NCBI GenBank assembly: GCA_026225415.1
Contig: JAMFSS010000003.1
Coordinates: forward strand, 62,001-126,000
Direction of reading: 5' to 3'
From: Alphaproteobacteria bacterium
GTDB lineage: Bacteria; Pseudomonadota; Alphaproteobacteria; UBA9219
DNA: 64,000 bases
Positions within the stretch are counted from its first letter, which is position 1; the number at the start of each line of letters is the position of its first letter. The position numbers were made by a program, and so were the translations under genes. The notes under the pieces are model-generated. The model was not told the origin of the DNA. It saw only the letters and a program-made list of their open reading frames with translations, and did not search any database. Of the stretch, positions 22,495 through 28,337 are shown one piece after another.

Positions 22495-22677
22495 ATGCCA
22501 AATCAGCCAACCCCACAATCGCAGACCGGTAATCAAAATACCGGTCGCCCACAAAATGACCGCGACAATACCGGTCAGCAAGCAAAAGATCGTAATGAAA
22601 AGGATCGCGATCAAAGCGGCAATGACAAGAGCGCCCCATCGAACAAGGGCGATCAAGGTTCTAGCAACAAGCACTAA
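22495..22677 (+). CDS. Small disordered hydrophilic protein
   Basis: A 60-residue protein with no hydrophobic core: Gln, Asn, Asp, Lys, Gly and Ser dominate (QTGNQNTGRPQND, DQSGNDKSAPSNKGDQ). AAGGAG sits nine bases upstream of the ATG, and a strong terminator follows 22 bp after the stop, which together support a real gene. Composition resembles small stress-associated disordered proteins; no family is recognised. A longer frame on the opposite strand covers it but has no comparable signals. Confidence 0.7.
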   Translation: MPNQPTPQSQTGNQNTGRPQNDRDNTGQQAKDRNEKDRDQSGNDKSAPSNKGDQGSSNKH

Positions 22678-22699
22678 GAGCGATCTTATGTGAGAATAA

Positions 22700-22728
22700 G
22701 AGGGGGAAAAATTTCCCCCTCTTTTTTT
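22700..22728 (+). terminator. Rho-independent terminator
   Basis: GAGGGGGAAA pairs with TTTCCCCCTC with a two-base loop, followed by seven T residues. It ends the small disordered-protein gene. Confidence 0.93.
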
Positions 22729-22959: not shown

Positions 22960-25900
22960 ATGACGATTGATTTTACACGGTTGACGGTTTCGCAGATCTC
23001 GCTGCTGTATACGACCGTGGTCGCGAAACTCACCACGCTTGATGTCCAATCGCTTTCTTCGGCGCAAGTTGGCGCGCTCACATCGCTGCAACTGCAATCG
23101 CTTTCCACCACTGATCTGATCGCCCTGACGACGACGCAGGTGCAAGGCCTGTCCTCCAAAGGGATCGCGGGCCTAAACCCTTCGCAATTTGTGTTCAGCG
23201 CCACGCAATTATCGGTGCTTAGCAATGCCCAGATCGACTCGATCACCACGCAACAGCTTGCGGGTTTATCAACCACGCAAGTCAGCGGATTAACGGTGAC
23301 GCAAATCGATGTGTTGACCAAGGCGCAGATTGCCGCCCTCAGCGCCGCCAACATAACGCAGCTCAGCAGCGTTCTGGTCGCCAACCTGTCGACCGCGCAG
23401 ATCAGCAGCCTGACAACAACCGAACTGGCCGCGCTGGCCACCACCGATCTGGCCAATCTGACAACGGCACAGATTAAGGCTTTGACCACCCTGCAATTGA
23501 ACGGGTTGGGGGTCGCGTCGTTAAACGCCCTGACGGGCGCGCAAATTGCGGCTTTGACCACGCAACAAATTGTTGGTTTGGCGACGACGCAAGTATCCTT
23601 GTTGACGACGACACAGGCAACCAGCCTGTCTACGGTGCAGATCAGGGTGTTGACCACTTTGCAGGTTGCCGCCATAGGCACCGTCAATGTAACGCAGCTC
23701 AGCAGCTTTTTGATATCGACCCTTACGACGGTGCAAATCAGCGCCTTGAACAATGCCGAATTGGGCGCGATCGCCACCAGCGATTTGGCCAGTCTGGCAA
23801 CGACCAGCCTGACGGGTTTGCAAATCGCGCAATTGAACGGGTTGAATCTCGCGTCACTGAACGCTTTGACAACTTTACAGATTGCCGCGTTGAACACCAA
23901 ACAGGTGGCGGGTTTTGCGACGGCACAAATATCGTTGCTGACCACAACGCAAATTCAATCGCTTTCGACCACGCAAATAAAATATCTGACCACCTTGCAG
24001 GTCGCGGCTTTGACCACCACGCAAGTTTTTGGTTTCGGCACGACACAGATTGCGGCATTGGCCGTCGCGCAAATTGCGGCGTTGAATGCGCAGGCGGTTG
24101 ACAGCCTGAGCCAGGCGCAAATCGCGGTATTGGGCACCACGCAAATTATCGCTTTAACGACCATTGAAATTGCGAATTTGTCGACTTTGCAGGCAGCAAG
24201 CCTGACAACCGCGCAGATCAAAGTTTTGACCACTTTGCAAATTGCGGCATTAGGCACCGTCAATGTGACGCAGCTAAGCAATGTGCTGATCACGAATTTA
24301 TCGACGGTGCAGATCAGCGCGTTGACCAATGATGAATTAGGCGCGATCGCCACCAGCGATTTGGCCAATCTGGCCACAGCCAAGCTTTCGGGTTTGCAAG
24401 TAACGCAATTAAACGGGTTGAACGCAGCATCGTTGAATGCCCTGACAACGATACAGATTGCGAATTTAAACACGAAACAGGTGGCGGCCTTAACGACAAC
24501 GCAAGTGGCGTTACTGACCACGACGCAAATTCAATCGCTGACCACCGCGCAATTGAAATATCTGACGACCTTGCAAATTGCGGCGCTCAGCACCTTGCAG
24601 ATTATCGGTTTCGGCACCACGCAAATTGCCGCATTGTCTGCGGCGCAAGTGGCGTCTTTGAATGCGCAGGCTGTTGATGATTTAAGCCAGACGCAAATCG
24701 CGGCTTTGGGCACTGCGCAAACGGCGGTATTGACCACGGCCGAAATTGCCAACCTGTCGACGGCACAGATAACCAGCCTGACAACCGCGCAGATCAAGGT
24801 TTTGACGACCTTGCAGATTGCGGCTTTGGGCACCATTAATGTGGCGCAGCTGAGCAGCCTTCTGGTCGCCAATTTATCGACCATACAAATTGGCGCTTTG
24901 ACGAATGACGAATTGAACGCGATTGCGCCAAGCGATCTGGCCAATCTGGCCACAACCAAAATCGGTTCTTTGCAAGTTTCGGCATTGAACGGGTTGAATG
25001 TCGCATCGTTGAATGCCCTGACGACCTTGCAGATTGCCGCGCTGAATACGAAACAGGTGGCAGGTCTGGCGACCACGCAAGTTGCCGCGTTCTCCACGAC
25101 CCAGATACAGGCATTGTCTGCGACGCAAATTAAGGTTCTAACAACGGCGCAAGTCGCAGCGCTCAGCACGTTACAGGTGGTCGGTTTCAGCACCACGCAA
25201 ATTACAGCATTAACGGCGGTGCAGGTCAGTATTTTAGGCACCGCGCAAATTGCCTCGCTGACAACCGGTGAAATTGCCGAACTGACCGCTGCGCAAACAA
25301 CCGGCGTAACGACGGCCCAGATTCAGGCATTGACCCCACAGCAGATCGCGGCTCTTGCCACGGCAGATGTTAAACAGCTCAGCAATATTCTGGCGGGTAG
25401 CCTGTTGACTACGCAAATAAGCGCTTTGACCAACAGCCAGATTGCGGCCATCGGTTTGGATTCACTGGCGACCTTTACCAGCGATCAGATTAACGCGCTG
25501 ACCGACAGCCAATTGAATAATCTGAATGCCAATTCATTGGGTGCCTTGACGGATGTGCAGATTTCCGCGCTGACCACCACCCAGATTGCCGATTTAATCA
25601 CAGCACAGATTGCCAGACTGGTGCCGTCGCAAGTCGATTTACTGACGGGTGATCAGATACAGGCTTTGACGACTTTGCAAATTGCTGTTCTAGGTGTGAA
25701 CAATGTCGCGCAGCTTAGCAGCGCCTTGGCCGCAAGCCTGTTAACGACGCAAATCGGCGCTTTGACCAATAACGAACTGGCCGCCTTTGCGCCGGGCGAT
25801 CTGGCGACATTCAGCAATGACCAGATTAACGCTCTGACCGACGGCCAACTGAATAATTTAAATGCCACATCGTTGGGCGCTTTGACCGATGTGCAAATCT

Positions 25901-27663
25901 CTGCGCTAACAACCGCGCAAATCGCCGATCTGATCACGACGCACTTGGCCAAACTGGCGCCGTCGCAAGTTGACTTACTGACCGGCGATCAGATACAGGC
26001 TTTAAGCACTTTGCAGATTGCCGTGTTGGGCGTGAATAATGTTGCGCAGCTGAGCAGCGCCTTGGCCGCAAGCCTGTTAACGACGCAAATCGGCGCTTTG
26101 ACGAATGACGAGCTTGCCGCCTTCGCGCCAAGTGATCTGGGCAATTTTACGAATGATCAGATTAATGCCCTGACCGATGATCAATTGAATAACCTGAACG
26201 CGACGTCGCTGGGCGGTTTGACGGATACGCAAATAGCGGCGCTGACCACGGTACAGATTGCGGATTTGGTGACAACGCAAATCGCCCAGCTGGCGCCAAG
26301 CCAGGTGGATCTGCTTTCAACCCCGCAAATTCAGGCGCTGGGCAATGATCAGATTGCCGCTCTGGGTGTCGCCAATGTAACGCAGTTGAGCAGCGCGTTG
26401 GCCGCGAGCCTGTTAACCACGCAAATCGGCGCTTTGACAAATGATGAATTGGGTGCGATTGCGCCAGGCGATCTGGCGACCTTTACCGGCGACCAGATTA
26501 ATGCCCTGACGGATGATCAGTTGAATAATCTGAACGCGACGTCGCTGGGTGGTTTGACGGATACCCAGATTTCTGTGCTGACCACCACGCAAATTGCGGA
26601 TTTGTCCTCGACGCAGTTTGCGCAATTGATCCCATCGCAAATCGATCTGCTGACGACTACGCAAATTCAATCGCTGACCAATGACCAGATTGGCGTTTTG
26701 GGCGTCGATAACGTAACGCAGCTAAGCACCATTCTGGCGGGTAGCCTGTTGACCACGCAAATCAGCGGGTTAACGAATGATGAGCTTGCTGCCTTCGCGC
26801 CGAATGATTTGGCGACCTTTACCGGCGATCAAATTAACGCCCTGACGGATGATCAGTTGAATAATCTGAACGCGACGTCGCTGGGCGCTTTGACGGATAC
26901 CCAGATTTCGGCGTTGACCACTACGCAAATTGCGGATTTGTCCTCGACGCAATTTGCTCAATTGATAACATCGCAAATCGATCTGCTGACCACCACGCAA
27001 ATTCAATCGCTAACCAATGACCAGATTGGCGTTTTGGGTATCGATAACGTAACGCAACTCAGCACCATTCTGGCGGGCAGTCTGCTAACCACGCAAATCA
27101 GTGCTTTGACGAATGACGAATTGGGCGCGATTGCCCCGGGCGATTTTGCGAACTTTACGCCCGACCAGATTGGTGCTTTGACAATTGATCAGGTGCCAAC
27201 CCTGACAACGGATGAAATTTCCAACCTGACCACAACGCAAGCCAGCGTTTTCAGTACGGCACAGATTCAAGCCCTGACAACCGATCAGGTCGCCGCCATC
27301 GGCACGCTCAATGTCGCGCAACTCAGCAACATTCTGGCAGGAAGCCTGACATCAACGCAGATCGGCGCTTTGACCAATGATGAATTGGGCGCGATCTCCT
27401 CCAGCGATCTCGCGACACTGACGTCGGATCAGGTAACGGGTCTGCAAAGCGATCAGCTGAATAATCTGAGCGTCGATGATATCAATGCGCTGACAACGGT
27501 GCAGATTGCCTCGTTGACCGATGACCAGGTGGGCGCTTTGACGACGCAGTTCATCTCGACCCTGACATCGACACAGGCCGGCGCATTTACATCCGATCAG
27601 GTACAAAACAGCGGTTGGGACGCCGATCAGCTGAACGCTTATGCGACCGATTTGCAGTCATAA
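22960..27663 (+). CDS. Giant octapeptide-repeat protein (1567 aa)
   Basis: Almost the whole 1567-residue protein is tandem eight-residue units of the form L-[TS]-T-x-Q-[IV]-x-A, about 190 copies starting near residue 8. Position 1 is Leu or Phe, position 6 Ile/Val/Leu, position 8 usually Ala or Gly. No signal peptide, no membrane helix, no Cys, and a single Trp near the end (SGWDADQLNAY). Units are grouped into exact super-repeats of 24 and 14 octads. T-x-x-Q resembles a helix N-cap, so a solenoid of short helical turns is plausible, but the fold is inferred. It converges with icmJ 23 bp away, so an adhesin or a Dot/Icm-exported protein is possible; no family name is claimed. Confidence 0.9.
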   Translation: MTIDFTRLTVSQISLLYTTVVAKLTTLDVQSLSSAQVGALTSLQLQSLSTTDLIALTTTQVQGLSSKGIAGLNPSQFVFSATQLSVLSNAQIDSITTQQLAGLSTTQVSGLTVTQIDVLTKAQIAALSAANITQLSSVLVANLSTAQISSLTTTELAALATTDLANLTTAQIKALTTLQLNGLGVASLNALTGAQIAALTTQQIVGLATTQVSLLTTTQATSLSTVQIRVLTTLQVAAIGTVNVTQLSSFLISTLTTVQISALNNAELGAIATSDLASLATTSLTGLQIAQLNGLNLASLNALTTLQIAALNTKQVAGFATAQISLLTTTQIQSLSTTQIKYLTTLQVAALTTTQVFGFGTTQIAALAVAQIAALNAQAVDSLSQAQIAVLGTTQIIALTTIEIANLSTLQAASLTTAQIKVLTTLQIAALGTVNVTQLSNVLITNLSTVQISALTNDELGAIATSDLANLATAKLSGLQVTQLNGLNAASLNALTTIQIANLNTKQVAALTTTQVALLTTTQIQSLTTAQLKYLTTLQIAALSTLQIIGFGTTQIAALSAAQVASLNAQAVDDLSQTQIAALGTAQTAVLTTAEIANLSTAQITSLTTAQIKVLTTLQIAALGTINVAQLSSLLVANLSTIQIGALTNDELNAIAPSDLANLATTKIGSLQVSALNGLNVASLNALTTLQIAALNTKQVAGLATTQVAAFSTTQIQALSATQIKVLTTAQVAALSTLQVVGFSTTQITALTAVQVSILGTAQIASLTTGEIAELTAAQTTGVTTAQIQALTPQQIAALATADVKQLSNILAGSLLTTQISALTNSQIAAIGLDSLATFTSDQINALTDSQLNNLNANSLGALTDVQISALTTTQIADLITAQIARLVPSQVDLLTGDQIQALTTLQIAVLGVNNVAQLSSALAASLLTTQIGALTNNELAAFAPGDLATFSNDQINALTDGQLNNLNATSLGALTDVQISALTTAQIADLITTHLAKLAPSQVDLLTGDQIQALSTLQIAVLGVNNVAQLSSALAASLLTTQIGALTNDELAAFAPSDLGNFTNDQINALTDDQLNNLNATSLGGLTDTQIAALTTVQIADLVTTQIAQLAPSQVDLLSTPQIQALGNDQIAALGVANVTQLSSALAASLLTTQIGALTNDELGAIAPGDLATFTGDQINALTDDQLNNLNATSLGGLTDTQISVLTTTQIADLSSTQFAQLIPSQIDLLTTTQIQSLTNDQIGVLGVDNVTQLSTILAGSLLTTQISGLTNDELAAFAPNDLATFTGDQINALTDDQLNNLNATSLGALTDTQISALTTTQIADLSSTQFAQLITSQIDLLTTTQIQSLTNDQIGVLGIDNVTQLSTILAGSLLTTQISALTNDELGAIAPGDFANFTPDQIGALTIDQVPTLTTDEISNLTTTQASVFSTAQIQALTTDQVAAIGTLNVAQLSNILAGSLTSTQIGALTNDELGAISSSDLATLTSDQVTGLQSDQLNNLSVDDINALTTVQIASLTDDQVGALTTQFISTLTSTQAGAFTSDQVQNSGWDADQLNAYATDLQS
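23746..25425 (+). repeat. Long super-repeats (576, 576, 528 bp) inside the giant gene
   Basis: Units start at 23746, 24322 and 24898 with the octads LNNAELGA, LTNDELGA and LTNDELNA. The first two spacings are exactly 576 bp (24 octads); the third unit is 528 bp (22 octads). Each contains the same ordered set of variant octads, such as LNAQAVDS and the boundary pair xVxQ-LSS. Codons have diverged between units, so the duplication is old or the units are under protein-level selection. Confidence 0.85.
25426..27105 (+). repeat. Five exact 336-bp super-repeats inside the giant gene
   Basis: Five units of exactly 336 bp (14 octads, 112 residues) start at 25426, 25762, 26098, 26434 and 26770. Each begins LTNxxxAA-type and carries DQINALTD, QLNNLNA, SQ[VI]DLL and VxQLSx in the same order. 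They are more alike than the 24-octad units upstream, indicating later expansion. A shorter, degenerate unit of 11 octads begins at 27106. Confidence 0.88.
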
Positions 27664-27686: not shown

Positions 27687-28337
27687 TTAAGCGGCGACCT
27701 TGTCGAATAACGATTGCCATTCGCTGCTGGGCAGCTTGGCATAGGGGCCGTTCGGCGAACGCCAGAAATTGACAATGCGTGCAAAGCCATTCACATCGCC
27801 ATCGCGGGTGCGCACCATGTGTTTTTCCAAAGGCACCAAACGAATGCCTTCCAGCTTGCGCAAGGATGCCTTGCGCTCCGCTTCATTCATATTTTCGTGC
27901 AGGACAATGGCCAGCAACAGCGGGTCATCGCTGCCCAGACGTTTCTTGGCTTCGGCCCGGCGGGTCATCAGCGCGTCCAATGCGCGCGTACCTGCTATGG
28001 CCATATCGCTGCCTTCTTCGGCGCGGGCCACATAAATGGCGCGGATAATGTGATTAAGTTCGGCCTGTGTGATTTCGGGCAGCCAAACAAGAACGCCCGC
28101 GCCCATCAATCCGGCGCGTTGCAGATCGGTTGCCAGCTCGCAGAAACTACAAGCGGTGACGAAACCTTCGGTCGAGGGAACGATACGTTGATATTGCGTG
28201 GAACGGAAACCGCAGAAACGACATGTATGGTCGTCGCGTTTTAAAATCTGTTCAGCTTGGGTTTTTGACGGGGGCTTTGCGCCTCCGCTCTCGGTGTCGG
28301 GCGAACCGACACCGAGAGTAAGGGGGAGGAAGGACAA
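27687..28337 (-). CDS. icmJ: Dot/Icm type IVB secretion protein IcmJ/DotN
   Basis: A 216-residue zinc-binding protein. HTCRFCGF and TACSFC (Cys 39, 42, 63, 66) with the EQILKRDDHTC lead and VWLPEITQAELN match IcmJ/DotN, an HNH-like-fold subunit of the DotL coupling complex that recruits effectors. The only initiation codon in frame is TTG at 28337; dotP lies upstream in the same frame, ending 13 bp before. No ribosome site is visible, so coupling to dotP is likely. SFLPLTLGV looks like a native N-terminus, but residues ~7-18 are encoded by a perfect palindrome. Confidence 0.85.
   Translation of the reverse strand: MSFLPLTLGVGSPDTESGGAKPPSKTQAEQILKRDDHTCRFCGFRSTQYQRIVPSTEGFVTACSFCELATDLQRAGLMGAGVLVWLPEITQAELNHIIRAIYVARAEEGSDMAIAGTRALDALMTRRAEAKKRLGSDDPLLLAIVLHENMNEAERKASLRKLEGIRLVPLEKHMVRTRDGDVNGFARIVNFWRSPNGPYAKLPSSEWQSLFDKVAA
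28288..28318. repeat. Perfect 13-bp palindrome inside the icmJ 5' end
   Basis: CTCTCGGTGTCGG and CCGACACCGAGAG flank a five-base loop GCGAA; weaker outer pairing CCTCC/GGAGG extends it. It falls in the first 20 codons of icmJ and could act as an mRNA hairpin or be an inserted palindromic element. Confidence 0.85.

Follow-up and report, generated by a model that had tools for sequence, protein, structure and literature searches.

The gene and its eight-residue repeat

The window (the whole 64-kb stretch of DNA that was analyzed) carries a giant gene on its forward strand (22960..27663, +). The ORF begins with ATG, is open across 1567 codons and is a real gene. Its product (1567 aa) has no Cys and a single Trp, and is made of approximately 191 octads in two registers, with a position-wise majority of L-T-T-T-Q-I-A-A. 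The identity of the protein to itself at a lag of eight residues is 0.325, compared to a mean of 0.110 and a maximum of 0.137 among 5000 composition shuffles. Octads were tallied in two registers (residues 8-78 and residues 79-1543), the register moving by one residue near residue 78; the N-terminal part in the first register (residues 1-78; 22960..23193, +) was delimited by the octad count and by comparison with a paralog. Both hydrophobic positions are kept in 189 of the 191 octads (L, I, V, F or M at position 1; those or A at position 6), while Q occupies position 5 in 122/191 and T or S position 2 in 124/191. No signal peptide is visible in the protein by inspection. The original prediction of an eight-residue period throughout the 1567 residues, in a protein with no Cys, one Trp and no signal peptide, agrees with these data.

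Super-repeats and selection

The octads are grouped in longer units. Three 576-bp (24-octad) units (23578..25305, +) have mutual identities of 65-75%, and five 336-bp (14-octad) units (25330..27009, +) have mutual identities of 65-84%; a sixth, diverged 336-bp unit (27010-27345, +) is 51-60% identical to the first five. The units had been described as exact, which is correct for their lengths and incorrect for their sequences: nowhere in the gene is a tandem repeat exact over 60 nt or more (lags 24 to 1497, steps of 3). An exact 528-bp unit, also proposed, is apparent only as a weak period (lag-528 identity at most 0.54). Exact repeats and recent slippage were rejected on these grounds. Pairwise comparisons of the first five 336-bp units yielded dN values of 0.08-0.26 and dS values ranging from 0.56 to saturation. 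With dN far below dS, the repeats are old and have been kept as protein under purifying selection. Separately, an ALTTAQ gene on a Niveispirillum cyanobacteriorum plasmid (NZ_CP025613.1; G206 C3:856214-860935) has profile scores that recur every 576 bp with the same or almost the same value. Its 24-octad units are therefore likely to be near-identical, unlike the diverged units of equal length in the window gene.

Genes flanking the window gene

The gene is flanked by pqiABC/Nramp genes on one side and, on the other, by a convergent icmJ/dotN-like gene 23 nt downstream (27687..28337, -). The latter matches NF038221 with an E-value of 3.9e-19 and 69 bits, below the cut-off of 100, and was judged not to belong to one system with the ALTTAQ gene. 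Of the convergence on Dot/Icm genes that had been proposed, this sub-cut-off neighbor is the part that stands; dotP and dotE were not recognized, a 130-aa neighbor having only a sub-cut-off Pfam match to DUF6789 and nothing in NCBIfam, and a 321-aa neighbor having no Pfam match. Among the 33 genomes searched from the order, 29 have the icmJ homolog (10/10 in the genus) and 4 have PF20080, the Pfam family of the window protein. The icmJ block with the genes for the 130- and 321-aa proteins recurs in congeners, accompanied by an lpxH-like gene, lptG, lptF and pepA where the contig reaches, and no ALTTAQ match was found on the congener contigs bearing this block. On the side of icmJ that holds ALTTAQ in the window, the contigs run on for 12 kb in G001, 21 kb in G005 and 2.2 kb in G008 with no ALTTAQ match. 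These three are the other ALTTAQ carriers of the genus, and all of them have the icmJ homolog and the ALTTAQ genes on separate contigs, in fragmented assemblies in which longer-range linkage is possible. Because the presence patterns of icmJ and ALTTAQ differ across the order and their adjacency is not conserved in congeners, the idea of a Dot/Icm link fails, and with it the proposed co-occurrence with icmJ. As a side observation, a 60-aa, very hydrophilic ORF (22495-22677, +; rich in N, Q, D, K and S) is perhaps a real small gene; an AAGGAG-like site immediately precedes it, and it is followed by a terminator-like hairpin and a run of T (22698-22723).

Family identity and sequence matches

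The window protein matches the Pfam family PF20080 (ALTTAQ_rpt) with 535.5 bits and an E-value of 4.5e-165 over 57 stretches (cut-off 26.4 bits), and contains the tandem octads L-[TS]-T-x-Q-[IV]-x-A of this family. Judged by its sequence, it is a member of this catalogued family and does not differ from it in kind, although its super-repeats of 14 and 24 octads are its own. The Pfam search output assigns PF20080 no function, and nothing in NCBIfam scored over the cut-off for the window protein. Annotated ALTTAQ members bear such labels as ‘heme utilization protein’ or ‘ICE nucleation protein’; nothing in our analyses backs these labels.

The octads also align with a solved 120-aa chain, 9zem (‘HeliScrew4’), with E-values of 4.1e-13 for the protein query and 3.7e-20 for the window profile. 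The two share octads across about 100-109 residues, with total lengths of 120 and 1567 residues, respectively; from its name, 9zem appears to be a designed chain. Neither ‘ALTTAQ’ nor ‘HeliScrew’ occurred in any paper found in the open-licence literature searched. The description of the protein as a little-described solenoid is therefore apt with respect to that literature, in which no paper names the repeat, and less so given that the repeat is catalogued as PF20080 and that a solved chain exists. A match to a characterized repeat family, which the original prediction had named as something that would refute it, is thus half present: the family has a name and, as far as seen here, no function. 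What is new is the window protein as a further member of PF20080, the repeat family itself being already known.

Three other kinds of match were taken as probably compositional: LRR_EndoS (Pfam, 31.7 bits vs. a cut-off of 27.9; residues 415-502, a stretch that also fits PF20080), CAAP1 (Pfam, 49.4 bits vs. a cut-off of 25), which is of the same sort, and LRR chains matched in the PDB. The β-strand per repeat expected of LRR proteins is missing, there being no strand in either of the two AlphaFold2 models described below.

Predicted structure and fold comparison

The AlphaFold2 model of residues 791-1014 (25330..26001, +), for which the alignment consisted of five other segments of the same protein, comprises 28 octads and 28 helices, each 4-7 residues long (pLDDT 88.3, pTM 0.79). 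The C-terminal segment, residues 1343-1567 (26986..27660, +; alignment of four other segments of the protein), is modeled as the same kind of solenoid (pLDDT 91.5, pTM 0.81) with 26 helices of at least 4 residues and one octad that has a 3-residue helix only. A 12-residue C-terminal helix (27622..27657, +) closes the solenoid in the AlphaFold2 model, and the C-terminal piece of the paralog has a similar end. From these two non-overlapping stretches, the window protein is predicted with high confidence to be a long continuous α-solenoid with about one short helix per octad. The models are best explained by a helix formed by octad positions 3-7, capped by the T/S at position 2, with L at position 1 and I/V/L at position 6 as the hydrophobic residues. 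The regular solenoid and the single capped helical turn per octad that had been suggested are therefore both present in the predicted structures. One helix per eight residues would be a very short unit for an α-solenoid.

The eight best PDB matches by Foldseek are mesothelin chains (E 2.7e-5 to 2.5e-3), with TM scores of 0.25-0.40 and an rmsd near 10 Å; the top match has an E-value of 2.7e-5 and a TM score of 0.35. Human mesothelin (7ued and others) resembles the models in being a solenoid of short helices, comprising 24 of them in a right-handed arrangement according to PMC10035497. The identity is 15%, and the same source gives ARM/HEAT units as 27-37 residues, in contrast to the uniform octads found here. 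Chains of ARM, importin and β-catenin proteins have Z of about 5-7, and values below approximately 13 may reflect only an arrangement common to repeat proteins. All 224 residues of the model of residues 791-1014 align with 7qlr, the receptor-binding protein of phage CDHS-1 (Z 10.0, rmsd 4.2, identity 14%), a Z that is also under the level of about 13. This structure tops the matches of the first model and is absent from the 50 best of the second, and so is treated as a lead only; no paper on 7qlr was found in the open-licence literature, and PMC10792529 proved to be on a subject other than CDHS-1. In a viral fold library the best match was an uncultured phage protein (E 3.8e-6, TM 0.31). 9zem was absent among the fold matches listed for the models (the fold library ends in April 2026). 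The models thus place the window protein among short-helix solenoids with a general ARM-like arrangement, the overall match to mesothelin and ARM/HEAT proteins being weak; its kinship, as far as shown here, is with PF20080 and 9zem.

Distribution and paralog

In a draw of relatives (E 1e-3), PF20080 was present in 4/10 genomes of the genus and in 0/23 other genomes of the order. It was found in 6/385 genomes of the class at E 1e-7, in 16/398 genomes of the phylum at 1e-8, and in 12/18 genomes of one family from another class (f197). Caulobacter vibrioides, in the control panel, was PF20080-positive at E 1e-7 and not at 1e-8, and was GT41-positive. Tblastn with the window protein recovered 58 plasmid records, chiefly from Rhizobium, Shinella and Cereibacter, of which two are doubtful (Spiroplasma, L121; Streptococcus suis). 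The first of these, Spiroplasma plasmid psAtri5, has a similar octad pattern in a Mollicute protein annotated as hypothetical that may be convergent. A phage or viral origin was considered and rejected, with no phage record recovered by tblastn and 16 pattern matches on viral contigs, none of which was confirmed.

ALTTAQ open frames reach 5692 codons. Several frames of 3000-5700 codons per genome occur in three f197 genomes (G501, G512, G466), one of which (G501, contig C92) has a 3781-codon frame with repeated GT41 matches; one of the ALTTAQ frames of 3000-5700 codons (L087) encodes 133 Trp. Three ALTTAQ proteins, one from G746 (L082) and two from Pseudomonas plasmids (L103, L108), end in similar C-terminal tails that lie outside the octad pattern and carry a DG-x-x-QLLVA motif; the tail is perhaps an export or anchoring domain.

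The genome from which the window derives has a second ALTTAQ gene, represented by two pieces: contig C6 ends in the N-terminal one (C6:364453-365080, L030; 57% identity to residues 5-130 of the window protein), and contig C4 begins with the C-terminal one (C4:1-370, L031; 55% identity to residues 1447-1566). We infer that the two pieces are one split gene, and that the assembly probably broke inside the repeats between C6 and C4.

Linkage to GT41 glycosyltransferase genes

In an all-against-all comparison of ALTTAQ neighbors, the most widespread group was TPR/GT41, present at 9 loci, with some members known only as TPR proteins; a sensor-kinase/regulator group at 8 loci (two being overlapping stretches) was taken as generic. 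In both G005 and G008, Pfam confirmed the gene that immediately follows ALTTAQ as GT41. The GT41 gene is at most 110 nt from the ALTTAQ gene in G005, G008, G234, G728 and G746, and approximately 4 kb from it in G206 and G301. Across 10 GT41-bearing genomes (of 12 picked as ALTTAQ carriers and searched with every hit listed), 8 of 22 GT41 clusters are no more than 10 kb from ALTTAQ compared to 0.31 expected (P 3e-10), with 7/22 within 5 kb and 5/22 within 500 bp. For this test coordinates were entered and neighboring GT41 genes merged into clusters by hand, the fragmented f197 genomes were left out, and the genomes are not independent (G000, the genome of the window, G005 and G008, with three of the eight hits, belong to one genus; G206 and G301 to another). 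In f197, a GT41 ORF was present in one of the 14 stretches fetched (12 genes), while GT41 is at most 7 kb from ALTTAQ in G443 and G529 and about 14 kb away in G447 and G476. ALTTAQ genes are linked to GT41 genes beyond chance at the level of the family.

GT41 is encoded in 22/24 ALTTAQ-positive genomes; G172 and G582 have ALTTAQ and lack GT41 genome-wide. In the class draw GT41 was present in 5/6 ALTTAQ-positive and 131/379 other genomes (P 0.022), a modest enrichment; it is common in the class anyway (136/385 genomes). An HMM built here identified a GT41 ORF in 13 of the 22 plasmid regions with ALTTAQ that were fetched (two from Cereibacter, five from Rhizobium, two from Pseudomonas, and one each from Rhodovastum, Niveispirillum, Pseudorhizobium and Pseudoroseomonas) and none in the other nine (Shinella (two), Sinorhizobium, Pararhizobium, Allorhizobium, R. 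rhizoryzae, Thioclava, Roseateles and the Spiroplasma outlier). The 22 regions were hand-picked to cover many genera and are not a random sample of the 58 records; the Niveispirillum locus (L109) is counted as G206 as well, and two pairs (L100/L101, L104/L105) are near-duplicates. No GT41 was found near ALTTAQ in G001 and G072, near one of the two genes in G206, or near some of those in G234 and G728.

The same HMM found no GT41 ORF in the 64-kb window. Elsewhere in this genome, a GT41 gene (C6:355096-357282) is 7.2 kb from the C6 piece of the paralog, with NTP-transferase, methyltransferase and glycosyltransferase genes in between. Linkage between ALTTAQ and GT41 or exporter genes was not found in print in the open-licence literature.

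Export and flagellar genes near ALTTAQ

Annotated regions were scanned for type I secretion (T1SS) and flagellar genes. Genes for an HlyD-family adaptor and an ABC exporter are annotated in two regions from Cereibacter, two from Pseudomonas and that from Pseudoroseomonas; they were found by Pfam in Niveispirillum, and homologs occur in G301. In Cereibacter sphaeroides 2.4.1, the gene for the ALTTAQ protein WP_011836189.1 is accompanied by an OGT gene (DQL45_RS20570) and by ABC exporter and HlyD genes (DQL45_RS20575, DQL45_RS20580). In the genome of the window, the best match to the T1SS adaptor TIGR01843 has 54.7 bits, compared to a cut-off of 208.65, and T1SS was rejected as the export route of this host, which has no curated adaptor. 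Two congeners have an adaptor over the cut-off (G002, G006), both without PF20080, and G005 has a partial match (192 bits). FlgE and a weak FlgD-like match adjoin ALTTAQ in G005, and flagellar genes are also present in the Rhodovastum and Pseudorhizobium regions. Flagellin is encoded in 10/10 congeners, and is uninformative when set against ALTTAQ in 4/10.

Proposed explanation and alternatives

The linkage to GT41 (OGT/SPINDLY-type) genes suggests that ALTTAQ giants are sugar-coated proteins. Our preferred reading, held tentatively, is that of a giant helical solenoid that would be glycosylated in the cytoplasm and displayed outside the cell. At the level of the family, the solenoid may be a scaffold with many glycosylation sites, on which a cytoplasmic, TPR-bearing GT41 of the O-GlcNAc-transferase/SPINDLY type, often encoded next door, would decorate the regularly spaced Thr/Ser residues. 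The rod would then be exported, possibly by type I secretion in the several lineages in which such genes are nearby, and could function on the cell surface or within the matrix, either in adhesion or as a coat. Since the GT41 gene of this host is 7 kb from the second ALTTAQ gene and not beside the window gene, modification of the window protein would be a further step beyond the family-level reading.

The general binding solenoid and the lectin-like solenoid are the strongest rivals. In the former, an ARM-type intracellular or periplasmic scaffold, the GT41 link would hold for certain subfamilies only and have no bearing on the window gene. The Z of about 5-7 to ARM, importin and β-catenin chains is consistent with such a protein, as are the absence of a visible export signal and of GT41 beside the window gene and in 9/22 plasmid regions. 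However, ALTTAQ proteins are giant, sporadic, length-variable and often plasmid-borne, unlike housekeeping scaffolds, and a GT41 gene lies 7 kb from the paralog that this genome carries; we regard this alternative as rather unlikely.

Somewhat doubtful as well, and in our estimation unlikely, is a glycan-binding solenoid that would bind the sugars made by neighboring glycosyltransferases rather than carry them. Known GT41 enzymes act on proteins, and a GT41 partner thus suits a substrate role better than a lectin role. Mesothelin chains as the eight best Foldseek matches, and the glycosyltransferases and methyltransferases among the ALTTAQ neighbors, are in keeping with binding; the mesothelin TM scores are nevertheless only 0.25-0.40, with an rmsd near 10 Å. 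A lectin role has been proposed for the short-helix solenoids of mesothelin, stereocilin and otoancorin (PMC2628672).

An improbable alternative is a protein linked to the flagellum, which would be exported via the flagellar apparatus or fixed to it and would be modified in the way that FlmG modifies flagellins. FlmG O-glycosylates flagellins in the Caulobacter cytoplasm, a precedent described in PMC7591256, which does not use the term GT41. The FlgE and FlgD-like genes beside ALTTAQ in G005 and the flagellar genes near the Rhodovastum and Pseudorhizobium ALTTAQ genes fit this idea; yet flagellar genes are limited to these three regions among the annotated ones scanned, flagellin and ALTTAQ differ in their presence among congeners, and no flagellar gene was recognized beside the window gene. 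A Dot/Icm-linked protein or effector, to which only the convergent icmJ/dotN-like gene points, is very improbable and close to refuted by the 29/33 vs. 4/33 presence and the unconserved adjacency. A functionless product of neutral repeat growth or of misassembly would suit so repetitive a gene and the broken paralog, but is just as improbable for an ORF open over 1567 codons, in a family present in several classes, whose units are diverged at silent sites and conserved as protein.

Returning to the glycosylated and exported solenoid, a known parallel is HMW1/HMW1C of Haemophilus, which likewise pairs a very large exoprotein with a GT41-type enzyme (PMC3012730, PMC3983070); HMW1C glycosylates the HMW1 adhesin (PMC3012730). 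HMW1 is two-partner-secreted and N-glycosylated, whereas the ALTTAQ rod is a predicted octad α-solenoid with a putative modification.

It is conceivable, though on balance doubtful, that ALTTAQ giants form a bacterial ‘glycan-lattice’ class, with open frames that extend to over 5000 codons and with one potential Thr/Ser acceptor per octad. In many lineages these proteins would be paired with a GT41 of their own and an exporter, and a cytoplasmic O-glycosyltransferase would build an outer, mucin-like coat on a backbone that is α-helical and not disordered. Against the reading as a glycosylated and exported solenoid stand the ALTTAQ genes with no GT41 nearby, the window gene among them, the relatedness of the genomes tested, and the absence of a T1SS adaptor over the cut-off and of a visible signal peptide in this host and its protein; GT41 enzymes are also common in the class and may modify other proteins. 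If one helix per octad is true, the repeat would be useful to fold designers. The recurrent GT41 neighbor makes a family without an assigned function testable, as a likely enzyme-substrate pair for bacterial OGT-like enzymes.
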